Source: Lacihabitans soyangensis (lineage in GTDB: Bacteria > Bacteroidota > Bacteroidia > Cytophagales > Spirosomataceae). From it: a stretch of 51,326 nt of DNA. This document shows, piece by piece, positions 13,772 to 31,931 of the stretch. Every line of letters begins with the position of its first letter. The stretch's first letter is position 1. The stretch is from positions 1-51,326 of the forward strand of contig NZ_RJUF01000023.1 of NCBI RefSeq assembly GCF_024343775.1, given 5' to 3'. Under the pieces are notes generated by a model, which saw nothing but the letters and a program-made list of their open reading frames with translations, was not told the origin of the DNA and ran no database searches. A program made the translations under genes and the position numbers.

Positions 13772-14452
13772 CTAAAAACCCATTTTCTCAAACGGAATAT
13801 CAAGCAGCTCAAAAACCGTATCACTCACAAAATTAAAATGCCACCATTCCATTGGGTCAACCTTGAAGCCGTGTTTTTTCATTACAGTTTTTAGTAATTC
13901 CCGATTTTTGATGACCTCTTCGGACAATTTCATAAACTCAGGATGAGCCGCATACACCAAAGCGTCAAATGGAGTGGGCATTTTGAGCTCTTTTTTGGTT
14001 TTGAGGTCAATCAATGTCAAATCTAAAGCTATGCCTCGATTGTGTTTACTGCCTGTCCATGGCAAACCCATATAAAGTGTATCGGGCAGCATCTCAAACA
14101 TCTGACAAGTAACCGAATAGGGACGGTAGGCATCATAAATTTTCAAACCATATCCTTGAGCATTTAAATCTTTCTGCACCGCTGCCAATGCCTTTGCCAC
14201 GGGTAATCTCACTAAAGCCACAGGTTTTTTGTACAATTGGGTGTAGAATACATTTTGGGTGGTGGCATATTTGATATCTAAAGCAATATTGGGCACATAA
14301 TCTTTGATTGGCACCAATGCTTTATTAGGGTCTTTTTTGATGGTTTCTTTCAGGATTTTGGGGTCTGAAATGATGTAAAGATTGTATTTAATGGTGCTTT
14401 GAGAGAAGGAAAATACAGGTAATAGTAAAATTAAGAATATAAGATTTCTCAT
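13772..14452 (-). CDS. D-alanyl-D-alanine dipeptidase, VanX/DdpX type (peptidase M15D)
   Basis: The protein has 226 residues. ATG 14452 begins a signal peptide (MRNLIFLILLLPVFSFSQ), and the longer frame runs into the upstream gene. The zinc-site motif SKHNRGIALD gives His137 and Asp144, EWWHF gives Glu202 and His205, and Arg110 in YDAYRPY matches the substrate-binding Arg. The family hydrolyses D-Ala-D-Ala, recycling D-Ala or modifying the cell wall. It follows the ABC ATPase by 4 nt at the end of the putative metal regulon. No vanH or vanA homologue is nearby, so glycopeptide resistance is unlikely. The 282 bases downstream to 13490 hold no gene. Confidence 0.88.
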   Translation of the reverse strand: MRNLIFLILLLPVFSFSQSTIKYNLYIISDPKILKETIKKDPNKALVPIKDYVPNIALDIKYATTQNVFYTQLYKKPVALVRLPVAKALAAVQKDLNAQGYGLKIYDAYRPYSVTCQMFEMLPDTLYMGLPWTGSKHNRGIALDLTLIDLKTKKELKMPTPFDALVYAAHPEFMKLSEEVIKNRELLKTVMKKHGFKVDPMEWWHFNFVSDTVFELLDIPFEKMGF

Positions 14453-14456
14453 GGAA

Positions 14457-15152
14457 TCACACGGTTTGTAAGTACAATTTTTCCAATTCATTGGCCGAAA
14501 TCTCTTTGGCATCAATTACCGAAACTAAGTTTCCCTCTTTCATAATTCCGATGCGGTTGGCTACTTCTTTTGCCCTGAAAATATCGTGGGTAGCCATCAG
14601 CACAGCCGTTCCGTTTTGAGCTAATTCACGCAAAATCTCCGAAAATTCGTTGGAAGCTTTTGGGTCAAGTCCCGAAGTGGGTTCATCAAGCAAAAGAGCT
14701 TTGGCTTTTTTAGCGATGGCAATGGCAATGCCTACTTTTTGACGCATACCTTTTGAATAGCCGCCAACTCGCTGATTGTGAGCGGTGTTTTGCAAACCTG
14801 CTTTGCTCAAAAACGAGCTTAATTCATCTTTTTCGTAAGAAAAACCTGCTAAAGATGAGAAAAACTCCAAGTTTTCGATACCCGAGAGATTTGGGTACAA
14901 CATCACCGTTTCGGGAATATAGGCGAGGTATTTCTTGGTTTCAAGGGGATTTTCTGCTACCGAAACGCCATTGATGCTTGCCGAGCCACCCGAAGGCTGG
15001 ATAAATCCCAAAAAGCAGTTAATAGTGGTGGTTTTACCCGCACCATTTTGACCCAACAAGGCAAATATTTCGCCCTCATTGATGGTCAAATTCAGACTAT
15101 TAAGAGCCTTTTGCTCTCCATAAGTTTTGGTTAAATTCGTTGCTTGTAACAT
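14457..15152 (-). CDS. ABC transporter ATP-binding protein
   Basis: The protein has 231 residues. I use ATG 15152 (MLQATNLTKTYGE) as the start, because upstream codons run through a palindrome and a repeat arm. Walker A is GQNGAGKTT (about 34-42), the signature YSKGMRQK is near 132, and Walker B LLLDEPTSGLDP is near 152. It belongs to the CcmA/NosF-like family of ATPases that drive ABC-2 permeases. Two DUF3526-type permease genes lie directly upstream in the same direction, so the three should form one complex. Direction (export or maturation) and cargo are unknown; context points to metal homeostasis. Confidence 0.9.
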   Translation of the reverse strand: MLQATNLTKTYGEQKALNSLNLTINEGEIFALLGQNGAGKTTTINCFLGFIQPSGGSASINGVSVAENPLETKKYLAYIPETVMLYPNLSGIENLEFFSSLAGFSYEKDELSSFLSKAGLQNTAHNQRVGGYSKGMRQKVGIAIAIAKKAKALLLDEPTSGLDPKASNEFSEILRELAQNGTAVLMATHDIFRAKEVANRIGIMKEGNLVSVIDAKEISANELEKLYLQTV

Positions 15153-15168
15153 ATCTTTTAGATTTAAG

Positions 15169-15186
15169 TCCCGATAGCTATCGGGA
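15169..15186. repeat. 18-bp perfect palindrome
   Basis: TCCCGATAGCTATCGGGA is fully self-complementary and lies 16 nt upstream of the ABC ATPase ATG, between it and the second permease gene. Similar CCCGATAGCTATCGGG palindromes are, to my recollection, dispersed in Bacteroidota genomes; no second copy was seen in this window. It could be a transcript-processing hairpin within the operon. Confidence 0.7.
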
Positions 15187-15213
15187 TTCGATTTTTGATT
15201 GACGATTGTTTTT

Positions 15214-15266
15214 GCTTTAAATCTGTGAAAATCAGCGTTTCGCAGAATCCGTTTCATCAGCGTGCC
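15214..15266. repeat. Dispersed intergenic repeat, single arm
   Basis: Read on the minus strand the segment begins GGCACGCTGATGAAACGGAT and ends CACAGATTTAAAGC. It is clearly related to the right arm of the element at 18130-18174 (GGCACGCAGATGACACGGAT on the same strand). Its first bases supply the last codon and stop (CGC TGA) of the permease ending at 15257. Confidence 0.65.
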
Positions 15267-16612
15267 ATCATGTTTTTACCAAATTTCAATTTCGCCCAAA
15301 ACACACACAAAATACTGATTATCAATAATGGCAAAAGCATTTTTAGCCAATTGAGACTCGGTTTTTCTTGATAAAATTCTAAACCAAATTTCTTCCAGTT
15401 TTCATCAGAAACTGCCGTTTCGGTGAAGATTTTTGGATAAAAATAGAGTCGTTTTTGCTCATGGAAACTTTCCAGTTTTTCGATAAAATTCAGGTAATTA
15501 TCCATATCCGAAAGACTCAAAGCATTAAGGCTTAACTGAGCATGAATACTGGGAAAAAACATGCCCGCCGTACTGCTGAAGGCATTGCGTTTTTTTAGTT
15601 TTTCTTTGAATGCCAAAGCATCTTTTGCTGCCTCATCGTCGCCCATTTGTTGCATGGCGTAGTACCATAGCCAACTGTAATCCTTGCCTTCGGGGTGTTT
15701 AAATTGACTAAACTGTGGGTAATGTTGATGAAATTTCGCCACGGTAGGTTCTTTGGGCACATCCCACTTGTTGTGATAGCCATCTCGACTTTCCAGCACG
15801 GTGCTGAATGCTTCGGGAACAGGATAAAGATTGACCGTAAGAGCATTGACTCCAGCAGGAACCACGATGGTGAGCGTTACCCATGAAAGCAATAAAATCA
15901 AGGCATTTTGGCTCGAATTTTTATGAAAACTGGCTACTAACCAAGCCAAAGTAAACCAAAAAATGATGTACAAAATAGAAGTAAGAATAAATGCCAGAAA
16001 TACAGCATCAAACGGAATCGCTAAGTAGAATTTGGCAATCATGAGCAGCAACACTAAAATTAAAAACACACTCACGAACCGAATTAAAATCTTTATTCGT
16101 AGCATTTTTATCGGATTTCCCGATTGGCTCAATACCAAACTCCAAGTGCCTTCTTCTTTTTCTTCCGAAATCAGATTGAAACAAAATGCAATAATGATGA
16201 GCGGAAAAAAGTAAATCAACACGAAACTAAAATCCATGTTTCCGAGCATCTGATACATGGGATTCATCAAATCGGTGGCGTATTTTTGTTCTTCCAAATT
16301 ACGAATCGTTACGCTTTTTAACGAAGGATTAATATCTCGCTGGCCAATGGCCAAACCTGCTAAATTGGGCATTTCATTTACCAAACCAAAACGCACATAA
16401 TAAAGCAATAAACCAATTTCTTTTGGGTGAAATTCAACATTTTTGGCAATGCTTTCTTGCTGATAATGAGCGGTTTTTTCAATGATTTCCTTGTTTTTAT
16501 CTAAAAAATGTTTGCCGATATTGAGGCTAATCAAGCCCGCCACAAACAGTATCAAAAGACCTGTCATCAAGCCTTTTGAACGAAGAAAGTTTTTTAATAA
16601 TAGTGCTTCCAT
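15257..16612 (-). CDS. ABC-2 type permease, DUF3526-like (second of pair)
   Basis: The protein has 451 residues. One membrane helix lies at about 17-35, then a large extracytoplasmic loop to about 125, four or more helices between 130 and 270, a second large loop, and a final helix near 425-442. The central EEKEEGTWSLVLSQSGNPIKMLRIKILIRF is the coupling-helix region of ABC-2 permeases. It starts one base after the stop of the preceding permease. The C-terminus (MMAR) is partly encoded by a dispersed repeat arm, so its natural end may have been replaced when the element arrived. Confidence 0.8.
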   Translation of the reverse strand: MEALLLKNFLRSKGLMTGLLILFVAGLISLNIGKHFLDKNKEIIEKTAHYQQESIAKNVEFHPKEIGLLLYYVRFGLVNEMPNLAGLAIGQRDINPSLKSVTIRNLEEQKYATDLMNPMYQMLGNMDFSFVLIYFFPLIIIAFCFNLISEEKEEGTWSLVLSQSGNPIKMLRIKILIRFVSVFLILVLLLMIAKFYLAIPFDAVFLAFILTSILYIIFWFTLAWLVASFHKNSSQNALILLLSWVTLTIVVPAGVNALTVNLYPVPEAFSTVLESRDGYHNKWDVPKEPTVAKFHQHYPQFSQFKHPEGKDYSWLWYYAMQQMGDDEAAKDALAFKEKLKKRNAFSSTAGMFFPSIHAQLSLNALSLSDMDNYLNFIEKLESFHEQKRLYFYPKIFTETAVSDENWKKFGLEFYQEKPSLNWLKMLLPLLIISILCVFWAKLKFGKNMMAR

Positions 16613-16613
16613 G

Positions 16614-18062
16614 TCAAAATGCTTTGAGGTTTTTAATCGAATAATTAACTAAGAAAAACAGTCCTAAAGTCCATACAATCAGTGAAATAATTGAAATGAC
16701 TTCGTTTTTAAATACCTGAATTAAACTCAAAAACTGATGATGGAAATCGGGTAAATCAGACCAGTGTTTTTTGCTGATGATAGCTTTTTTATCGGCCGAA
16801 GTTTTTACTTTATTGCCGATGTATTTTATCTGTAATTCATTCATGGTTTGAGCCAAATGGTATCTGAAATCTTCGGCTTGATTCTGAAAATCGTTGTAAG
16901 CCGAGTGATCAGTTCCTGAAAGTGCCATCGAAAGGTTCTTGATAGCCATGTAAGGATTCAGAAATGCCGTAAAACGTACCACATTTTGCTGTTTTTGGTA
17001 GGTTTCAACCAAATGTGCCTGATGTTTTTTGTAGGTTTCGGCACTGAGTTTTTCACCCTCACGCATCACATAACCGCTGTAATTGAAAGGTAATTTATGC
17101 GTAGAATCTACATTATATGCAATAAGCAATGAGTCTTTTAATGCCTTGAAATGTGGGTCATTGGGGTTGTGACTGTCGCCCTGCCTGATGAGTTCTTGTT
17201 CTACGTTAGTGTCAAATTCAATCTTTGAAGGTGATGGAAAAAGATTTTGACCTACTACCTGCGAAACTTTGGGCAACATCAAGGTAAAAAATAACCAAAA
17301 TCCAATCAGCGAAGTTAGAGCCGACTTCGAAGATTTTGCCTTTGCCGATACCAAAATAGCCAGTACAGAAAGTATAAAAAAGTAAGCTAAGTAACTGATA
17401 ATAAGAAAGAAAAAACGGATATAACTTTGCGGATTTTCGGAGGCAAATTCATTGAAAATCAACAAAATAAAGCCAACAATGACCGATGGCACAAAAATAC
17501 TCAAAGCCAAGGCAAACAAACCAAGCGATTTACCCAAAATGAGTTCTTGCCAACTCACACCCTGCGTGAGCAAAATTCGTAGCGTGCCGTGTTCTCTTTC
17601 ACGTGCCACCATATCAAAGCCCCAAAAGAAAATGAGTAGAGGTAACAATAGTTGTAAAATCATTCCTGCCGAAATTTCACCAAAACGCAGCAATCCATTC
17701 GACAAACTGGCTTCCGAAAAGTTGACGGTATTTTGTTTGTGGGCTTCTAAAAAAACGGCATTTCCTACGTAGCTATCCATGCCAAAATCGAAGAAACTCA
17801 GAGGAAAACGATTTCTGAATGCCACATAGCCATAATGTGCCATGCGGTGTGGATGTTTATCAGGGCGATTTTCCCAGCGTTCACGCACTTCGAGGCTGTA
17901 ATGTTCTACGGTTTCTTGTTGATTTACAAGGTATTTGTACCCAGAAAACAAAGCAAAAAACAATAAACCATTAAAAATCCCAATAAGCCAAAGCGTACTG
18001 GAATTCTTGATTTTACTGGTCCAAACCTGTTTTGAAATGAGTTTTAGTATTTTGTTTCGCAT
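16614..18062 (-). CDS. ABC-2 type permease, DUF3526-like (first of pair)
   Basis: The protein has 482 residues with the same topology as its downstream partner: an N-terminal helix (about 25-45), a periplasmic loop, a helix cluster (about 130-270) and a C-terminal helix (about 452-472). The coupling region VAREREHGTLRILLTQGVSWQELILGK is easily seen. The two permeases probably form a heterodimer served by the ATPase at 14457-15152. The gene is separated from the TonB receptor upstream by a 127-nt gap filled with an inverted-repeat element, which could lower its expression relative to the receptor. Confidence 0.82.
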   Translation of the reverse strand: MRNKILKLISKQVWTSKIKNSSTLWLIGIFNGLLFFALFSGYKYLVNQQETVEHYSLEVRERWENRPDKHPHRMAHYGYVAFRNRFPLSFFDFGMDSYVGNAVFLEAHKQNTVNFSEASLSNGLLRFGEISAGMILQLLLPLLIFFWGFDMVAREREHGTLRILLTQGVSWQELILGKSLGLFALALSIFVPSVIVGFILLIFNEFASENPQSYIRFFFLIISYLAYFFILSVLAILVSAKAKSSKSALTSLIGFWLFFTLMLPKVSQVVGQNLFPSPSKIEFDTNVEQELIRQGDSHNPNDPHFKALKDSLLIAYNVDSTHKLPFNYSGYVMREGEKLSAETYKKHQAHLVETYQKQQNVVRFTAFLNPYMAIKNLSMALSGTDHSAYNDFQNQAEDFRYHLAQTMNELQIKYIGNKVKTSADKKAIISKKHWSDLPDFHHQFLSLIQVFKNEVISIISLIVWTLGLFFLVNYSIKNLKAF

Positions 18063-18079
18063 TTCTTTCCTGGATTTAT

Positions 18080-18174
18080 GGAACGCTGATGACGCTGATA
18101 TTCTACCGCTGATAAATTCGGATTAAAGTATCCGTTTAAATCTGCGTTGCTTGCATCCGTGTCATCTGCGTGCC
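18080..18174. repeat. Large imperfect inverted-repeat element in an intercistronic gap
   Basis: The left arm 18080-18123 (starting GGAACGCTGATGACGCTGAT) and right arm 18130-18174 (ending CATCTGCGTGCC) are imperfect reverse complements separated by 6 nt. They consist of degenerate units of the form ACGCnGAT and ACGGAT. The element nearly fills the gap between the TonB receptor stop and the first permease start. One related arm occurs at 15214-15266. This kind of ACGCAGAT/ACGGAT repeat is, from memory, dispersed in many Bacteroidota genomes, but no mechanism is visible here. Confidence 0.7.
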
Positions 18175-18189
18175 ATTTAACAATATGAT

Positions 18190-20676
18190 TTAAAATTTAT
18201 AAGTCGCCGTTAGCATAAAATTCCTTGGTGCTCCTGGAAACAAACGGGTATAATTTTGAGCTCCAATCCAATACGTTTTATCAAAAATATTGTTCATGTT
18301 GAGAGCTACTTGTACGTTGCTTTTGCTTGGCGTGTAATAAATAGCCGCATCAAAAGTAGTAAAGGCTGGTACTTCAAACGCTCTACTGAACCACGGAATT
18401 CTACTGCCTTGGGCGTTCATTCCTGCTCCAATTCCCAAATCTTTTAGTTTAGAATTTGCTCCGAAATTGTAGCGAGTCCAGACATTACCGCTATGTTTGG
18501 CCACATTCTCTTTGCGTTGGCCCACTAAGGCCTCATTAGCGTCAGCAATGATTTTAGCATCAATAAAGCTGTATGAAGCATTGATTTGCCAGTTTGGCAG
18601 GATAAAACCCGCCAAATCGGTCTCGAAACCACGACTACGGTCAGCTCCACGTTGTACCAATAAGTCAGGCTTGGTTGGGTCATTGGCACTCATCAAGATA
18701 TTTTTTTGGTTGATTTCATACACAGCAGCATTTAAAGTAAATCGCTTTTCGAAAAGCTCAGTTTTTACACCCAATTCTTTCAAGTCGCTGATTAATGGTT
18801 TGAATGTAGCCGCCGAAGTTGGGGTCCAAAAATAGGCTCCGGTACTTGGCAATAATGTTACAGTGTTTGATTGTGGTTGATAGCCTTCCAAGTAAGTACC
18901 ATAAACATTTATATTTTTAGTCACTTCGTAAGTCAAGCCAATTCTTGGAATCAATGCTGTGTTTTTGAATGATGCCTCGTTGGGTGCGTTATAGTTTGTT
19001 ATATCTTCAAACCATTCGTTTCTTAAACTCAACAAAGCAGAGAATTTTCCAATTTTTAGTTGCTCTTGAATATAAATAGCGTCAGTGGTAGTCAATGCCG
19101 ATGGCACTGCAATTCGACTGTTGAGTGTATAATCATTAATATTTCTAACCGTATAAACTGGATTACTCAAGTCAAAATAATTTGTGTTAGGTCTTGGTAG
19201 TGTTTTTCCACCAATGGTAACAGTCTGATAATTAGCCGCATTGGCTATCGCAAAACTTCCAGCTACCGAGCCATCTTTCAACAAAAATCCACGGGCAGCG
19301 TTCTGTCCGCCACCTTTGAGTTTATTCCAGCTTTGTAAGTCATAGCCTACCAAAAGTTTATGCGAAGTTTTGCCCGCTTTAAAATTGAAATTGAAGTAAG
19401 CGTTTAGGTTATCAGTATTCCACAATTGCTTGCGTTGCACCATTTGCATTCCTACCAAACTAGTAACTTCGGCACCTGTGATGTCTCTCGCAAAGGCGTT
19501 AGTTGTGCGGTGTTCCTGCAAATCTTCAGACCAAGTTTGTTTCATGTACGAGGCATTAAAACTGATTTTCTCGCTGAATTTATGCGAAAGATTTGCCGTA
19601 AGAATCAATTCTTTCGACTTGAAAAAGTCGTTGGCCGCACCTAAATTCAAGCTGATTGGCGTACTGTTCAAGTTTGTTTTGCCTGCTACCGCCCCGAAAA
19701 TCGGCTGACCACGGTCGAGGTTGCCGACCATATTTGAGTAAATCAACTCAGTATTAATGGCAGTTTTATCGCTCGGTAAATAGGTGATAGATGGAGAAAT
19801 CAAAACCGAATTATTCTTCACCAAATCACGGTAAGATTGTGCCTCTTGGTAAGCACCGTTGATGCGATAAAGCAAGGTTTTTGATTCATTCAATGGGCCT
19901 GTAAAATCCAAAGCCCCACGAACTGTGCTGAAACTTCCAGCACTCAGACTCACCTCTCTACGAGTTTCGGCCAAAGGTTTTTTTGTTACCATGTTGATAC
20001 TTCCACCTGGGTCAACGCTGCTAAAAGTAACCGAAGCTGGGCCTTTCAGCACCTCAACACGCTCCACATTGGTAGTAAGCGGTTGTAAAAAGTAAAACTG
20101 GCGGGTACGCATTCCGTTGATAATTTGTCCTTCCTCGTTTTGACTGATTCCTCTGATATTGAATTGATTATAAAAACTCGAAGGCGAAACCCCCGAAGCT
20201 ATTTTTACGGCATCCGCCAATTGAAACGCTCCACGGTCCGCAATCAATTCTTTGGTAACAGTGCTGAGTGCCTGTGGCAACTCTTTGTTTTTGATGGCAA
20301 TTTTGGTAGCCGAAAAACTATAGTCAGAGTTGTAATCTTTTCTGGCTCTACCCAGTACTTCTACGTCCTGGAGCAAGGTTTCTGAGGGTTTCAGACTAAT
20401 TTCAAGCGTTTGATTGGCCTTAACTTCCTGCGAAAATGCTTCATAACCAATTGAACTGATACTCAGCTTGTAATTTTTGTCTGAAAGGTTTGTAAACTCA
20501 AAATTTCCGTTTTTATCGCTCAAAACACTTTTGGTTTCTAAGGTTGAGCTAAGTTTGACAGTCGCTCCGATAATAGGTATTTTCCCATTTTCTTTTATGC
20601 TGCCATTTAAGGTATTTTGGGCAAATGAAACCGTTGAAATTAGCAGTAAGAGAGAGAGTAGTTTTTTGAAATACAT
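18190..20676 (-). CDS. TonB-dependent receptor, siderophore-receptor type with carboxypeptidase-regulatory N-domain
   Basis: The protein has 828 residues with a signal peptide (MYFKKLLSLLLLISTVSFAQ). Residues about 22-105 form a CarboxypepD_reg-like domain (LNGSIKENGKIPIIGATVKL), about 115-255 the plug (FNIRGISQNEEGQIINGM; VERVEVLKGPASVTFSSVDPGGSINMVTKKP), and the remainder a 22-strand barrel ending in the outer-membrane signal MLTATYKF. The plug resembles TIGR01783 siderophore receptors. Its place 22 nt after a COG0523 GTPase gene and behind metal-type operators suggests it imports a zinc or other metal complex rather than iron; that substrate is inference. Confidence 0.9.
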   Translation of the reverse strand: MYFKKLLSLLLLISTVSFAQNTLNGSIKENGKIPIIGATVKLSSTLETKSVLSDKNGNFEFTNLSDKNYKLSISSIGYEAFSQEVKANQTLEISLKPSETLLQDVEVLGRARKDYNSDYSFSATKIAIKNKELPQALSTVTKELIADRGAFQLADAVKIASGVSPSSFYNQFNIRGISQNEEGQIINGMRTRQFYFLQPLTTNVERVEVLKGPASVTFSSVDPGGSINMVTKKPLAETRREVSLSAGSFSTVRGALDFTGPLNESKTLLYRINGAYQEAQSYRDLVKNNSVLISPSITYLPSDKTAINTELIYSNMVGNLDRGQPIFGAVAGKTNLNSTPISLNLGAANDFFKSKELILTANLSHKFSEKISFNASYMKQTWSEDLQEHRTTNAFARDITGAEVTSLVGMQMVQRKQLWNTDNLNAYFNFNFKAGKTSHKLLVGYDLQSWNKLKGGGQNAARGFLLKDGSVAGSFAIANAANYQTVTIGGKTLPRPNTNYFDLSNPVYTVRNINDYTLNSRIAVPSALTTTDAIYIQEQLKIGKFSALLSLRNEWFEDITNYNAPNEASFKNTALIPRIGLTYEVTKNINVYGTYLEGYQPQSNTVTLLPSTGAYFWTPTSAATFKPLISDLKELGVKTELFEKRFTLNAAVYEINQKNILMSANDPTKPDLLVQRGADRSRGFETDLAGFILPNWQINASYSFIDAKIIADANEALVGQRKENVAKHSGNVWTRYNFGANSKLKDLGIGAGMNAQGSRIPWFSRAFEVPAFTTFDAAIYYTPSKSNVQVALNMNNIFDKTYWIGAQNYTRLFPGAPRNFMLTATYKF

Positions 20677-20698
20677 AATATTTGTTTTGGTTAATTAT

Positions 20699-21910
20699 TT
20701 AAATTTTGGGGAAAGGGTCTTTAAACTTGCCACCGGATTCCATACTTAATATTTCTTCCTCGGTACAAAGGCAGTTTTCGAGCTCTGAACAGATTATCTC
20801 TTCGTTGAGGTCTTGACCAATGATGACCAACTCATTTTGTCTATCGCCAAAACGTTTGTCCCAACGGCTTTCAATTTGCTGTTGATTATTAAGAAATGAA
20901 GCGTATTGTGATCTTTCTCTAAAAGTCATGCTCGCCCACCAAACTCCAGCACTTTCGGCTCGTAAAGAACCTCCAGCCTGACTCCAGTTTAGGGCATCGT
21001 CAGGACGTGATGACATCCAGAATAATCCTTTTGAGCGTATGATACCTGCATGCCATTCATCTCCAATGTAATTCCAAAATCTTTCAGGATGGAAAGGTCG
21101 TTTATCTCGGAAAACAAAACTACTTATACCATATTCCTCCGTTTCGGGGGTATGCGTTATGCCTTTGTTTCGGTTTTCAAGCTCCTGAATCCAACCGGCA
21201 GAACTTTCCGCTTTTCCATAATCAAAAAGTCCCGTGTTCAAAATTTGAGAGGTTGGCACTTTCCCGAAGCTAGATTCTATAATTTTAGCAATTGGATTAA
21301 GTGACTTAATTATGGCCTTAAGTTCACCCAACTGATATGGGCTTACGAGATCAGTTTTATTTAAAATAATGATATCAGCAAATTCAATTTGGTCAGTTAA
21401 AAGATTTACGATAGTACGGATATCATTCGGATCATCGTTGAGGTTTCGTTGCCAAATATTATCGGCCGAACCAAAGTCTTTCCCAAAATTATAGGCATCT
21501 ACTACGGTCACCATGCAGTCAATTTGGGCATATTTTGAAAGGTCAATACCATTTTCGTCGTCCACAAAACTGAAAGTTTGGGCCACGGGTACAGGTTCTG
21601 AAATGCCTGTGGATTCGATAAGTAGGTAATCGAACCGATTTTCTTTGGCCAGTTTTTCTACCTCTATCATCAGATCTTCACGAAGCGTACAGCAGATACA
21701 ACCATTGCTCATTTCTACCAATTTTTCCTCGGTTCTGGAAAGCGTATTTTCTTTTTCGACTAGGGCAGCATCTATATTTACTTCGCTCATATCATTAACT
21801 ATCACAGCCACTTTAAGGCCTTCTTTGTTGTGAAGAACATGGTTGAGCAAAGTGGTTTTTCCAGCTCCGAGAAAACCCGAGAGCAAGGTTACGGGGAGTT
21901 TTTTATTCAT
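20699..21910 (-). CDS. COG0523 (CobW/ZigA-like) metal-chaperone GTPase
   Basis: The protein has 403 residues. P-loop [11 protein letters not shown] lies at about 12-22, the metal-binding GCICC (in [12 protein letters not shown]) near 70-77, [10 protein letters not shown] near 101, NKTD near 185, and a CobW_C domain from about 265. GCxCC GTPases bind Zn2+ and deliver metal; the 400-residue ZigA-like subgroup is typically induced by zinc starvation. The start overlaps the MerC-like gene's end by 8 nt, implying translational coupling. Cobalamin genes, which would suggest true CobW, are absent here. Confidence 0.9.
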
Positions 21911-22250
21911 GATGGCATTTTTTACAATGACGCAGGTTATAAATATGACCTATTATTAAGCCTAAGCTGGCTAAGTAACTTATTTCGTGGAGAATGTGAA
22001 ATTCATCTTCGAACAAAATACAAACAGTGAGTAAGAAGAAGCTTGACCAGATTATGCCTAGTGCAACCTTACTCTCTGAGTTTTTGGAAGCTTCATAAGC
22101 GGCAAAAAAACTGATGATTAGAAACAAATAGGAAACCTCATGCCACCAAGAAAAGTTAGAGGCTATAAAGATGAGAAAAGGTGTAAATAGGCAATGCACC
22201 ACACAAAGTGATGCACTTGCGATTCCTAACCAATCTGATTTAAAATTCAT
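21903..22250 (-). CDS. MerC-like small membrane protein
   Basis: The protein has 115 residues. I chose ATG 22250 ([10 protein letters not shown]) because the longer frame to 22289 would be read through the operator and promoter. Four hydrophobic segments (about 7-27, 33-48, 58-75 and 82-97) and the early Cys pair context [10 protein letters not shown] match MerC domain proteins (PF03203). The C-terminus has a HCKKCHHE metal-binding tail. MerC proteins carry Hg2+ in mercury operons, but stand-alone Bacteroidota copies commonly sit in zinc-responsive loci, as here beside a COG0523 gene. It is the first gene of the putative metal operon. Confidence 0.8.
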
Positions 22251-22261
22251 ATGTTTATAAA

Positions 22262-22316
22262 TGCAACAATGTTGCAAATATAAAAACATAAATGATTCAA
22301 ATGCAACAATGTTGCA
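22262..22316 (-). promoter_or_regulatory. Twin palindromic operator overlapping the merC-like operon promoter
   Basis: TGCAACAATGTTGCA occurs at 22262-22276 and again, identical, at 22302-22316, exactly 40 bp apart. On the minus strand TATATTTG (plus 22275-22282) fits the Bacteroidota -7 element TAnnTTTG. A TTG inside the upstream palindrome (plus 22304-22306) lies 21 nt from it as a -33 element. A dimeric repressor on the two sites would block both promoter elements. Fur/Zur-family regulators bind 15-bp palindromes of this form; assignment to Zur comes from the regulated genes. Confidence 0.8.
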
Positions 22317-22328
22317 TAAATTTTTAAT

Positions 22329-22772
22329 TTAATTGAATTGAATTAGGCTAGCATCGTCCAAGATGTAGTTCAGGTCATCGACATTGTCAGAATTGAGTCT
22401 GAACTTGCCTTTAACGGTGATGATTTGGTCTGTTTTGAATCGATTTTTGGTAGTGAAATTGAGCTGAAGGATGGATTCTGGCCCAGAACCACCACAAAAG
22501 AAACAAGCTGCCATGGGTTTGGCAGAAAGCACATAGAGGTTTTGACTGACTGGAATTACATATCCTTTTATTTCCACAAATTTTCCTTCTAGTTTTTGTA
22601 AAGAAGCTCCGAAAGTAGGGTAGAGGAAGTCTAGCTCATATTCCTTGTTGAATTTCTTCGTGAATTTTACATCTCTCAGTGTAGCCCAAGTAATTTTTTG
22701 GGTACTTATGTCTTGAGAATATCCCTGAATTGAGATAACTATCAGAAATAGAACAAATTTTATTTTTAGCAT
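22329..22772 (-). CDS. Secreted protein with CFFCGG motif, unknown function
   Basis: The protein has 147 residues. ATG 22772 begins a signal peptide (MLKIKFVLFLIVISIQGYSQ); the alternative ATG at 22805 is inside the operator. The mature part is beta-rich and OB-fold-like (EGKFVEIKGYVIPV..., ITVKGKFRLN), with Cys90 and Cys93 in AACFFCGGSGPES. Such a CxxC may bind metal or be redox-active. It resembles DUF3299-type secreted proteins, but I cannot confirm the family. It is expressed divergently from the His-rich lipoprotein gene through a shared palindrome and ends 13 nt before the merC-operon operators, so it belongs to the same putative metal regulon. Confidence 0.6.
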   Translation of the reverse strand: MLKIKFVLFLIVISIQGYSQDISTQKITWATLRDVKFTKKFNKEYELDFLYPTFGASLQKLEGKFVEIKGYVIPVSQNLYVLSAKPMAACFFCGGSGPESILQLNFTTKNRFKTDQIITVKGKFRLNSDNVDDLNYILDDASLIQFN

Positions 22773-22783
22773 AAAAGAATTAG

Positions 22784-22810
22784 TATTTTTGCAACAACGT
22801 TGCAAAAATA
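22784..22810. promoter_or_regulatory. Symmetric operator with a -7 element on each strand
   Basis: TGCAACAACGTTGCA at 22790-22804 is the third palindrome of the 22262/22302 type. It is embedded in a longer symmetric block: TATTTTTG at 22784-22791 reads as TAnnTTTG for the plus strand (lipoprotein gene, ATG 22820). The same octamer on the minus strand (plus 22803-22810) serves the secreted CxxC gene (ATG 22772). One bound dimer would cover both -7 elements. The -33 regions are weak, as expected if an activator or derepression matters. Confidence 0.7.
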
Positions 22811-22819
22811 AATATTATT

Positions 22820-23200
22820 ATGAAAATTAGCAGACTATTCCATCTTTTTGTTGTGATACTTGGATGCTCAAGTCCGAAAGTCGAATTGACCAAGGCCAAC
22901 AAAATTCACTTGGAAAATGCCGCCATCTTTGAAGTTTTAGAAAACAAATTGGATAGTTTATTGAAAATTAGCACAAATGAAACCCAAAATAATGACCTTC
23001 AAAACCTTAATCACGAATTAAAAGAACTAGAAGAAAATATGGTAGAAGTGCCTGGTTTTGAACACGAACACCATCATGAGGGCCATAACCACAGTCATGC
23101 GGCACCTATTAACTATACTGATGATCAGATTTTGGCCATTCAAAAAGAAGTAAAATCGGAACTTTTAAAGATAAAAACCAAAATAGAAAATTTTAAGTAG
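22820..23200 (+). CDS. Histidine-rich lipoprotein, putative metal binder
   Basis: The protein has 126 residues. A short signal ends in the lipobox VILGC (Cys16), so it should be anchored in the periplasm or outer membrane. The body is mostly helical with acidic/Asn-rich stretches. Residues 81-93 hold seven His in 13 positions (EHEHHHEGHNHSH), a typical Zn/Ni/Cu-binding loop. Promoter and operator lie immediately upstream (22784-22810). A zinc store or scavenger that works with the receptor operon is a reasonable inference. It converges with the TetR gene, leaving 4 nt between stops and no room for a separate terminator. Confidence 0.65.
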   Translation: MKISRLFHLFVVILGCSSPKVELTKANKIHLENAAIFEVLENKLDSLLKISTNETQNNDLQNLNHELKELEENMVEVPGFEHEHHHEGHNHSHAAPINYTDDQILAIQKEVKSELLKIKTKIENFK

Positions 23201-29407: not shown

Positions 29408-30016
29408 TCACTCAACAATAGTTCTGAAAGTGAGATTAACGCGTGGCTTAGACACCATTTTGGTTGGTGGAAGACGGTGTAGCCAGTGCGTTTGGGTGGT
29501 GTCTTTCATTACCAACAAGCTACCATGCTCTAGAAAAAGGTCTATTTTTTCTTTTGATTGCTTATGTTTAAAAGCAAATTTTCTTTCGGCCCCAAAACTT
29601 AAGGAACCGATGGCACCGTCTTTTTTAAGGTCCTTTTCTCCATCGCTGTGCCAAGCCATGCCTTCATCTCCAGAATGATATAGGTTTAGGAGGCAAGAAT
29701 TAAAGGTTTCGCCGGTTGCGTTTTCTATGGTTTCTTTGAGTTCTAGCAATTCTTTGGTCCACAAAAGAGCCTGCTTGGTTGTATTGGAGTAAGTATATTC
29801 AAAGGGTTTTTCACCGTACCAAGCTACTTTTCGCTTCGTAATAATTTTTTTGCCGAAAATCACGGCTTCGTCGTTACGCCATTCTATGGTATTGAGCAAC
29901 GCATCTAGGTAATGATTGGCCTGCTGATGGTCAAACAGTTTTCCGTAATAGTTTACCGTTCCCTCGTAAGGTAGCCAGTTTTTTGATGAGTCGGGTTTGA
30001 AATCAAACAAGTCCAT
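29408..30016 (-). CDS. alkB: Alpha-ketoglutarate-dependent dioxygenase AlkB
   Basis: The protein has 202 residues starting MDLFDFKPD at 30016; a start at 30049 would overlap the Ada-domain gene. Fe(II) ligands are His123 and Asp125 (AWHSDGE) and His180 (THWLHRL). The 2-oxoglutarate Arg residues are Arg192 and Arg198 (PRVNLTFR). The lead-in NSCLLNLYHSGDEGM is typical of Bacteroidota AlkB. It removes methyl groups from 1-methyladenine and 3-methylcytosine in DNA or RNA by oxidation. It is the last gene of a four-gene alkylation-repair operon, 11 nt behind the Ada-domain gene. Confidence 0.93.
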   Translation of the reverse strand: MDLFDFKPDSSKNWLPYEGTVNYYGKLFDHQQANHYLDALLNTIEWRNDEAVIFGKKIITKRKVAWYGEKPFEYTYSNTTKQALLWTKELLELKETIENATGETFNSCLLNLYHSGDEGMAWHSDGEKDLKKDGAIGSLSFGAERKFAFKHKQSKEKIDLFLEHGSLLVMKDTTQTHWLHRLPPTKMVSKPRVNLTFRTIVE

Positions 30017-30027
30017 TCTGCCAGATT

Positions 30028-30240
30028 TTATATTAAACAATGACCACAAGGTCTGAAATTTCTTTCTAGAGCTTCTTCTTCAGAACAAAAGAACACTCTA
30101 TTCTGTTTAAACATTCTTTTTCCAGATTTGCAATTGAGTTTTCCGAAGATTTTGAGTTTTACATTTCCTCCAAAAGTAATCTTCTTTTGTCGTATTTGTT
30201 TTCGCAATTCTGCAGGATTTATGTCGTCATGCCGAATCAT
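30028..30240 (-). CDS. Stand-alone Ada metal-binding domain protein
   Basis: The protein has 70 residues from ATG 30240 (MIRHDDINP), four bases after the stop of the oxygenase gene; an ATG at 30261 is the alternative. It aligns with only the N-terminal zinc domain of Ada (PF02805): LKIFGKLNCKSGKRM, NRVFFCSEEEALERNFRPCGHC. Three of the four canonical Cys positions are seen (NCK, PCG, HCL). The second is Lys, and an extra Cys lies in VFFCS. In Ada this domain takes methyl groups from phosphotriesters and turns on transcription; here it is not fused to the DNA-binding part. Confidence 0.82.
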   Translation of the reverse strand: MIRHDDINPAELRKQIRQKKITFGGNVKLKIFGKLNCKSGKRMFKQNRVFFCSEEEALERNFRPCGHCLI

Positions 30241-30244
30241 TCCT

Positions 30245-30961
30245 TCAAGATTTAGCATCATGAAAAATGATGCCCAAAGTATGACATTCGCCCGTATGAA
30301 CTTCGCTTACACCGTGTTTCATATTTACTCTATAATAACCTTTTGAGCCTTTTATGGGTCTGAAATTGGTGGTAAAAGCCAACATGTCGCCCTTTTTTGG
30401 TTTCAAAACTATGGCCTTGGATTGGGCTCTTGGGGTTTGTTGGGTAAGTACAAACTCACCGCCAGTGTAATCCTCATCAGGTTGGTTCAAGAACAATACA
30501 GTTTGAATGGGGAAAAATACATCGCCGTACAGATCTTGGTGCAAAGTGTTGTGACCTCCCTTGCCATATTTTAGAATCAGAACAGTTGGTTTTAATTGGT
30601 CATTTTTACGGCATTTTTCCAACATTTCTTCATGAGTTTCTGGAAATTCTGTTTCGATATTTAGGACTTTAAACCACAGATTGGCTATTGGAGCAAGCTT
30701 TGCATAAATATTTGTTCTAATTTCTGAAATAAGACTCGGAAGAGGGTACTTGAAATATTTGTATTCTCCCAATCCAAATCTGTAGCGTTCCATTACTACT
30801 GTTTTGCGGTAAAGAAGAGGGTTTTCGTACTCATTTTTAAGTTCTTCACATTGGGCGGCAGTCAGTATGTTTGGGATAATTGCATATCCTTTTTCATGCA
30901 TAGTTTCTGCGAATGCTTCCCAATCAACGCTTTCTAATTTTATGATTAATTCGCGATTCAT
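30245..30961 (-). CDS. 2OG-Fe(II) oxygenase of the alkylation-repair operon
   Basis: The protein has 238 residues. The double-stranded beta-helix ligands are His141 and Asp143 (TLHQDLYGD) and His216 (NMKHGVSEV), with TGGEFVLTQQTPRAQSKA between. This is a Phytanoyl/prolyl-hydroxylase-like family that regularly neighbours ada-type genes; its target (nucleobase, protein or RNA) is not established. It lies between the AraC-methyltransferase fusion (10 nt) and the Ada-domain gene (4 nt), so it should be coexpressed upon methylation damage. Confidence 0.87.
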   Translation of the reverse strand: MNRELIIKLESVDWEAFAETMHEKGYAIIPNILTAAQCEELKNEYENPLLYRKTVVMERYRFGLGEYKYFKYPLPSLISEIRTNIYAKLAPIANLWFKVLNIETEFPETHEEMLEKCRKNDQLKPTVLILKYGKGGHNTLHQDLYGDVFFPIQTVLFLNQPDEDYTGGEFVLTQQTPRAQSKAIVLKPKKGDMLAFTTNFRPIKGSKGYYRVNMKHGVSEVHTGECHTLGIIFHDAKS

Positions 30962-30971
30962 TCTAATAAAA

Positions 30972-31814
30972 TCAAAAGTTCAATTTCGCACTTTCCCAGC
31001 CAATGATAGCCGTTTTTCTGGTGGTTCCCCACATATATCCGCCCAGATTGCCAGATGCTTGGATAATCCTGTGACACGGAATCAAAAACGCTACAGGATT
31101 GCTACCAATCGCTGTTCCAACTGCTCGTGAAGCAGTGGGTTTTTCTATTTGTTGGGCCACAGATCCATAGGTGGTTAATTGTCCCATGGGTATTTTCAAG
31201 AGCGTTTCCCAAACTTTTAGCTGAAAGTCTGTGCCTTTTAAGTGCAGTTTTATTTGTTTGAGTTTACTCCAGTCATTTTGAAAAATAAATAGGGCATTTT
31301 GTTGTAAAATGTCCAGTTTTCTCTGGAAAGTTGCCTGTGGAAAGTGACCTTGAATGGTTTGGAGACCTATTTGCTCATTTTCATAAAAGGCCATGTGGCA
31401 GATTCCTTTTTCGGTAGATGCTACCAGGATGTTTCCAAAAGGACTTTCGGCAAAACTGTAGTTTATCTTCAGGTTTTTGCCTCCGTTTTTATATTCTGCG
31501 GGTGTCATGCCTTCAATATTTATAAACAATTCGTGCAAACGACTAGTGCCTGAGAGACCCATTTCATGGGCAGTTTCGAAGACTGAGGTTTGGTTGGCTT
31601 TTAAAAGTTTCTTGGCATGCTCAACGGTGGTGTATTGTAAAAACTTCTTGGGACTTGTGCCGGCCCACTCGCTAAAGAGCCTTTGGAAATGAAAAGGACT
31701 CAGATGAACTTTTTCGGCCAATTCGTCGAGGTTCGGCTGGTCTTTGAAATTGGCCTTTATATATGCTATTGCTTCGGCAATTCTATCGTAGTTCAGTTTG
31801 TCTTGCGTTTCCAT
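30972..31814 (-). CDS. AraC-type regulator fused to O6-methylguanine-DNA methyltransferase (Ada-like, lacking the metal domain)
   Basis: The protein has 280 residues from ATG 31814 (METQDKLNYD). An AraC HTH pair (about 1-100: LDELAEKVHLSPFHFQRLFSEWAGTSP, then LGLSGTSRLHELF) precedes a methyltransferase N-domain (about 115-190). The catalytic domain has FLIPCHRII with acceptor Cys247 and the preceding SRAVGTAIGSNP. It repairs O6-methylguanine suicidally and likely activates its own operon. The usual Ada N-terminal zinc domain is absent but encoded separately two genes downstream. Confidence 0.92.
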   Translation of the reverse strand: METQDKLNYDRIAEAIAYIKANFKDQPNLDELAEKVHLSPFHFQRLFSEWAGTSPKKFLQYTTVEHAKKLLKANQTSVFETAHEMGLSGTSRLHELFINIEGMTPAEYKNGGKNLKINYSFAESPFGNILVASTEKGICHMAFYENEQIGLQTIQGHFPQATFQRKLDILQQNALFIFQNDWSKLKQIKLHLKGTDFQLKVWETLLKIPMGQLTTYGSVAQQIEKPTASRAVGTAIGSNPVAFLIPCHRIIQASGNLGGYMWGTTRKTAIIGWESAKLNF

Positions 31815-31931
31815 ATTCTCATTTTGATGGTACAAATGTCGATATAGTTTTCTTTTCAAAAAATCCGATTCTTGCTAAGATTTGTAGAAATTGCGTTAGT
31901 TAATCGAGCTTGACTTTTATCATAACCTTTA

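Follow-up and report, generated by a model that had tools for sequence, protein, structure and literature searches.

A probable zinc-starvation operon of the ZnuK-ZnuGHI type in Lacihabitans soyangensis, with paired Zur-like operators and conserved permease residues

Introduction

What is the function of a gene row that joins a MerC-family protein, a COG0523 GTPase and a TonB-dependent receptor to an ATP-binding cassette (ABC) unit of the ABC-2 type? The question is raised by a 51,326-nucleotide stretch of Lacihabitans soyangensis (contig NZ_RJUF01000023.1, positions 1 to 51,326; the whole stretch is called the window below), in which seven minus-strand genes occupy positions 13772-22316. To our knowledge the ABC-2 class rarely imports. 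ABC-2 pairs with the DUF3526 domain, to which the two permeases of this row belong, are without a named function, and an open-licence literature search found no paper under the term DUF3526. The sole published example found, znuGHI of Caulobacter crescentus, is filed as a zinc importer (PMC4176598).

Here we argue from sequence comparisons that the gene row is, with high probability, a ZnuK-ZnuGHI-type operon for zinc starvation, and we weigh what its ABC-2 unit may do.

Results

The operon core resembles Caulobacter znuK-znuGHI

The list of open reading frames (ORFs) and profile searches of the window proteins confirmed the packed row of seven minus-strand genes, with the gene families and the four tight junctions (an 8-nt overlap and gaps of 22, 1, and 4 nt) as given in the initial annotation. 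The core consists of a TonB-dependent receptor of the siderophore-receptor subfamily (18190-20676), two ABC-2 permeases assigned to DUF3526 by Pfam (permease 1, 16614-18062; permease 2, 15257-16612), and an ABC ATPase (14457-15152; the listed ORF extends to 15257, and start 15152 is preferred because the starts of homologues suggest it). The row is headed by a small membrane protein of the MerC family (21903-22250), which scored 55.5 bits against PF03203 (gathering cut-off 27.6), followed by the COG0523 GTPase (20699-21910), a putative zinc metallochaperone. The GTPase matched the ZigA model NF038288 over its full length (556.2 bits, E 3.7e-167) and stayed under the curated cut-off of 600, so that by the curated score it is classed as ZigA-like only and not as ZigA.

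The core is the predicted counterpart of znuK-znuGHI. In C. crescentus, according to Mazzon et al. 2014 (PMC4176598), Zur represses znuK, which encodes a TonB receptor, together with znuGHI, described as an 'ABC-2 type transport system', and the fold changes in a zur mutant were 41 for znuK, 29 for znuG, 38 for znuH, and 12 for znuI. The initial annotation had taken the combination to be an undescribed system; for the core this does not hold, as it was reported in 2014. What is new is the variant, in which MerC and a ZigA-like GTPase stand in one row with the core behind a paired operator, and the conserved residues of permease 1 described below.

The 19-base znuK operator given in that report (PMC4176598) was used to search 299 genomes of the Caulobacteraceae, the family of a Phenylobacterium locus. 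The znuK/znuG operator was present exactly in two of the 299 genomes, in both cases with a divergent TonB receptor and an ATPase-permease-permease set. The window core proteins and the operator-flanking proteins were one-to-one best matches in both genomes. The values at locus L183 were 36% and E 4e-84 for permease 1, 26% and 1e-56 for permease 2, 42% and 1e-63 for the ATPase, and 25% and 2e-43 for the receptor, and DUF3526 was present in both permeases of the Phenylobacterium relative. On homology to the Caulobacteraceae set, permease 1 would correspond to ZnuH (as the tree below also suggests), permease 2 to ZnuI, and the ATPase to ZnuG; the receptor is matched to ZnuK by position and subfamily.

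Both systems thus combine a siderophore-subfamily TonB receptor with an adjacent ABC-2 ATPase and two ABC-2 permeases under a Zur-type operator, which in the window is putative. They differ in that the genes are divergent in Caulobacter and form a single row in the window, in the sequence of the operator, and in the MerC, ZigA-like GTPase, and dipeptidase genes that the window row adds. The Caulobacter COG0523 gene, zrpX, sits elsewhere, with zrpW (PMC4176598).

Three sets of relatives were assembled. The phylum set holds 36 strong DUF3526-pair neighborhoods (578,510 bp, two of them from one genome, G254) plus 8 weak ones, from a survey in which 56 of 345 genomes were positive, weak matches included. 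The same-order set holds 20 neighborhoods, which are the best-scoring non-self permease 1 matches except G713, G849, and G866. The third set, mostly pseudomonadotal, is the best 80 of at least 581 confirmed loci found with one search motif; it also includes loci from Campylobacterales (L158), Deltaproteobacteria (L111), and an 'uncultured bacterium' (L140 and L159).

A permease 1 tree of 62 rows was built by a quick maximum-likelihood search (SH-aLRT support); it represents 13 of the best 80 loci. The window protein clustered with 14 others from its phylum, all from receptor-linked loci (support 99). The sister of this clade (99) comprised 15 proteins: the 13 from the 80-locus set, the Caulobacteraceae protein, and one protein of the phylum set (L063). 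Window clade and sister set were joined with a support of 100. Two deeper branchings had lower values, 91 and 94, and the program flagged long branches in other parts of the tree and dissimilar composition in many rows.

Paired palindromes resemble Zur operators

Two exact copies of the palindrome TGCAACAATGTTGCA, at 22302-22316 and 22262-22276, precede the MerC gene and lie 40 bp apart, which bears out the double palindrome noted initially. The listed MerC ORF extends to 22289; start 22250 is preferred because the listed start would place an operator box within the gene. About 0.5 kb further on, beyond the span covered by the initial annotation, a third exact box, TGCAACAACGTTGCA, was found at 22790-22804. 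The pattern TGCAACnnnGTTGCA has four exact copies in the 5.65-Mb genome, three of them in the window, and the reversed control pattern has none. The fourth copy lies on contig 174, between the gene for a ZnuD-like TonB receptor and a lipoprotein gene. When up to two mismatches were allowed, the window gave 3 matches against 2.74 expected, which is the level of chance, yet all three were exact. In the genome the same scan hit 115 places and its reversed control 63, and looser matches therefore say little.

The third box stands between two divergent genes. One (22329-22772, minus strand; listed ORF to 22805) encodes a small protein, here called D158, which has a Cys-Phe-Phe-Cys-Gly-Gly stretch and belongs to no Pfam family; D158 homologues lie near boxes in L076 and L078 of the phylum set and in L217 and L236 of the same-order set. 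The other (22820-23200, plus strand) encodes a His-rich putative lipoprotein with homologues in L076, L228, L229, L233, and L236. The two genes share the box and are probable members of the same regulon.

Expected box counts in relatives were taken from first-order Markov simulations (30 runs for the phylum set, 40 for the same-order set, and 15 for the 80-locus set). In the phylum loci, exact boxes numbered 10 (simulated mean 0) and one-mismatch boxes 17 (simulated mean 1.8); in the same-order loci there were 21 exact boxes (0.03) and 20 with one mismatch (1.35). At least one box within one mismatch was found in 17 of the 36 phylum loci and in 17 of the 20 same-order loci. Adjacent box pairs were spaced by 35-40 bp in 17 of 23 cases (window, 20 same-order, and 36 phylum loci). 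In the best 80 loci the proteobacterial Zur box, TGTTATnnnATAACA, occurred instead, 9 times exactly (0.07 expected) and 33 times within one mismatch (1.7 expected). No locus contained an exact copy of the other lineage's box, and within one mismatch there were 2 and 1 such occurrences. Chance occurrence of the boxes was rejected on this enrichment in all three locus sets, and the boxes of the window look like putative Zur operators. Of the computed arguments for zinc, the strongest is that the same genes are preceded in each lineage by a different operator, one that suits that lineage.

These data also bear on a quite different explanation, that of an iron-siderophore operon which incidentally carries a COG0523 gene. 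It draws on the score of the window receptor against the siderophore-receptor model TIGR01783 (281 bits, cut-off 223.5). However, this cut-off is also passed by the receptor next to the Zur-controlled znuK operator in Caulobacteraceae and by 8 of 8 chosen ABC-linked receptors. Moreover, the box is shared with the ZnuD-like receptor locus, and in the best 80 loci the same genes stand behind proteobacterial Zur boxes above chance. We consider an iron operon very improbable.

Gene neighborhoods in relatives

A receptor, GTPase, or MerC match, or a box, was found in 32 of the 36 strong phylum loci versus none of 8 contrast loci described below, although some of the phylum-set matches are weak (GTPase 37-42%, MerC 25%) and could represent different proteins from those families. 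The loci with none of these features are L058, L088, L090, and L092, and L058 and L088 are short contigs. A TonB receptor lay beside or near the ABC-2 unit in 16 of the 36 phylum loci, in 17 of the 20 same-order loci, and in 71 of the best 80, where a match anywhere in the stretch, up to about 8 kb on each side, was counted.

The ZigA-like gene and MerC each had a match in 3 of the 20 same-order loci and are thus both optional. The layout at L228, from the family of the window, almost equals that of the window: box, MerC, ZigA-like gene, an oxidoreductase-like gene (by eye), box, His-rich protein, receptor, permease 1, permease 2, ATPase. MerC heads the gene row there and in L076 too. Downstream of the ABC-2 unit of L076, a same-order genome, a CDF-like protein with a His stretch and a ZIP-like protein (both by eye; L076:12742-14409) lie beside a one-mismatch box.

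The last gene of the window row (13772-14452, minus strand) encodes a protein that resembles M15 D-Ala-D-Ala dipeptidases and has a signal-like N-terminus. It passed the M15 family model PF01427 (98.6 bits) and fell below the curated cut-offs of the VanX model NF033115 (78.3 bits, cut-off 320) and of NF007557 (132 bits, cut-off 176). For the peptidase and MerC genes, the starts at 14452 and 22250 are more probably correct than the listed ones. The dipeptidase was found in none of the 36 phylum loci and in one same-order locus (L222, at the end of the row, 63% identity). It was therefore rejected as a core part and is an accessory, a lineage-specific, occasional passenger.

A second DUF3526 ABC-2 subfamily served as contrast (8 loci, L093-L100). 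These loci had no box within one mismatch, and no match to the window receptor, GTPase, or MerC was found in their stretches. The 10 contrast permeases form a clade of their own in the permease tree. A zinc function for all DUF3526 pairs was rejected on the missing boxes and zinc-type neighbors of this subfamily and on its separate clade.

Zinc genes elsewhere in the genome

The absence of a ZnuABC-type importer, part of the initial annotation, is supported: ZnuA had no match in the genome, and 11 of 14 control genomes were positive in the same search. The ABC-2 unit would share with ZnuABC its presumed purpose; it differs in belonging to another ABC class and in standing in a genome without a ZnuA match. 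Three Fur-family proteins are encoded in the genome. The one at L015:2971-3387 on contig 177 (Pfam FUR, 43 bits) contains paired Cys motifs as well as a stretch rich in His, and our guess is that it may be Zur.

The contig 174 receptor matched ZnuD with E 1.5e-27; its score of 96.5 bits fell well short of the curated cut-off (950), and a haem-receptor model scored higher. Two boxes on this contig (L012, 66365-66379 and 68774-68788; one exact and one with one mismatch) flank the receptor gene, which is followed by the lipoprotein gene, and the one-mismatch box overlaps the start of the receptor gene. This is a probable second zinc locus.

Permease 1 and its structural relatives

Hydrophobic stretches of permease 1 span residues 21-42, 127-154, 173-209, 213-244, about 248-270, and 444-477, from which residues 43-126 and 271-443, the latter containing DUF3526, would lie in the periplasm. 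Both loops contain conserved motifs, HxxxH and ExH in the first and DxH in the DUF3526 loop. In the phylum set H72, H76, and H108 were present in 36 of 36 proteins, E106 in 35, D296 in 34, and H298 in 31, and all six residues are kept in the Caulobacteraceae permease. As the phylum set was picked via the DUF3526 domain, H72, H76, E106, and H108 lie outside the selecting region. Among the 10 contrast permeases, His76 was found in none, His108 and Glu106 in one each, Asp296 in three, and His298 in one. The conserved His, Glu, and Asp residues in these predicted periplasmic loops suggest a metal site.

When the permease 1 profile was compared with solved structures, NosY was the sole confident match (7o0y, E 3.6e-11), and the match covered profile positions 132-262, the membrane core. 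Permease 2 alone had no confident solved match. The best solved matches of the ATPase were ABCA-type lipid transporters (6.6e-56), with NosF at 3.8e-41. NosDFY is an ATP-spending machine that works on copper-handling proteins in the periplasm. The likeness of the window unit to it consists of the partial NosY match and of NosF among the ATPase matches. Unlike NosDFY, the seven proteins of the operon include none of the NosD-like beta-helix family according to Pfam, and the window permeases hold large predicted periplasmic loops.

As NosY is the nearest solved permease, the unit could equally well be a machine acting on periplasmic zinc or an importer. The two proposals, to which we give equal and low credence, differ in the evidence they call on. 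Zinc import by the ABC-2 unit would be in keeping with the absence of a ZnuA match, with the TonB receptor beside or near the unit in many loci, and with the ABCA-type transporters that head the ATPase matches. The co-regulation with uptake receptors described in the available part of the Caulobacter report (PMC4176598) points the same way, although that part does not demonstrate import by znuGHI. Moreover, none of the known families of periplasmic binding proteins was recognized by Pfam in the operon. As far as we know, ABC-2 folds serve for the most part in export or in mechanical work. Since NosDFY works on copper-handling proteins, we prefer, tentatively, a periplasmic zinc machine to a ZnuABC-like importer.

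Membership in the ABC-2 family together with a siderophore-subfamily receptor also fits a third proposal, put forward in the initial annotation, in which the unit would export a zincophore or a peptide that the TonB receptor recaptures. However, no metallophore-synthesis family was found by Pfam among 29 window proteins (drawn from 62 window ORFs of at least 100 aa, many of which are not genes), the rest of the genome not having been searched, and none was recognized among the unmatched ORFs of the 20 same-order loci, as judged from their first residues only. Export is unlikely and ranks behind both the periplasmic machine and the importer.

Other features of the window

The remaining junctions of the gene row are wider, with 127 nt between the TonB receptor and permease 1 and about 104 nt between permease 2 and the ATPase, with the start of the latter taken as 15152. 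Repeat-like 17-mers occur in both gaps (15153-15256 and 18063-18189), with 3 matches within 3 mismatches against 0.03 expected, and the permease 2/ATPase gap contains a perfect palindrome, CCCGATAGCTATCGGG, at 15170-15185, in a single copy in the window. The idea of an RNA hidden in these gaps was rejected, since they gave no Rfam match and no minus-strand terminator in the scan. At 29408-31859, on the minus strand, the window contains three adjoining apparent DNA alkylation repair genes; two of them code for 2OG-Fe(II) oxygenases and one for an Ada-like methyltransferase that carries an AraC domain.

Discussion

The zinc link proposed initially is supported by the Zur-like operators, the ZigA-like GTPase, and the relation to znuK-znuGHI, all of them read from sequence. 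Under zinc-replete conditions Zur, a repressor of the Fur family loaded with zinc, would bind the paired palindromes and silence the operon. When zinc is scarce, the TonB receptor, by analogy with ZnuK and from its subfamily, would import a zinc species, probably chelated, over the outer membrane. At the inner membrane the ABC-2 machine, made up of the ATPase and the two DUF3526 permeases, may spend ATP on periplasmic zinc with the help of the putative His/Glu/Asp site of permease 1, either releasing it from a carrier or handing it over to an uptake route. By their families, the ZigA-like GTPase may distribute zinc in the cytosol, and MerC may move metal over the inner membrane.

Several observations weigh against this account. 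The ABC-2 step, which we infer from conservation and the partial NosY match, is its weakest. A ZIP-family locus is present in the genome, and thus zinc entry need not depend on the ABC-2 unit. The spread of the system is patchy: permease 1 had a match in 89 of 341 genomes of the order, weak matches and the own genome included, and in neither of the two other genomes listed for the genus. Boxes within one mismatch were absent from 19 of the 36 phylum loci and from 55 of the best 80. Same-order near-copies come from one genus (L218/L219 and L223/L224), so that there are fewer independent events than loci. The window receptor resembles the Caulobacteraceae receptor at the subfamily level only. 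As for the residues, H72 and H76 are invariant in the 80-locus set because the search motif contains both, position 72 of the contrast permeases is His in 6 of 10 in one alignment and in none of 10 in another, and position 108 is His in one of 10.

A broader proposal, which we put forward with the same reserve as the periplasmic machine itself, is that ZnuGHI-type ABC-2 complexes form a separate class of metal machines in Bacteroidota and Pseudomonadota. They would be NosFY-like with a built-in periplasmic zinc site, would use ATP to strip or hand over receptor-delivered zinc, and would differ both from ZnuABC-type importers and from exporters.

Literature searches on a Zur operator in Bacteroidota brought up two papers of this phylum with a mention of Zur. 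Zur is reportedly mentioned in a Fur study of Porphyromonas gingivalis (PMC6613475). The other, a Riemerella anatipestifer ZntR paper (PMC11960050), speaks, in its available part, of Zur in other bacteria. The putative operator described here is a candidate Zur operator for Bacteroidota. One branch of the DUF3526 family is tied to zinc in two bacterial groups through two unrelated operator sequences, and a conserved set of residues is now named whose mutation could reveal how the machine acts.

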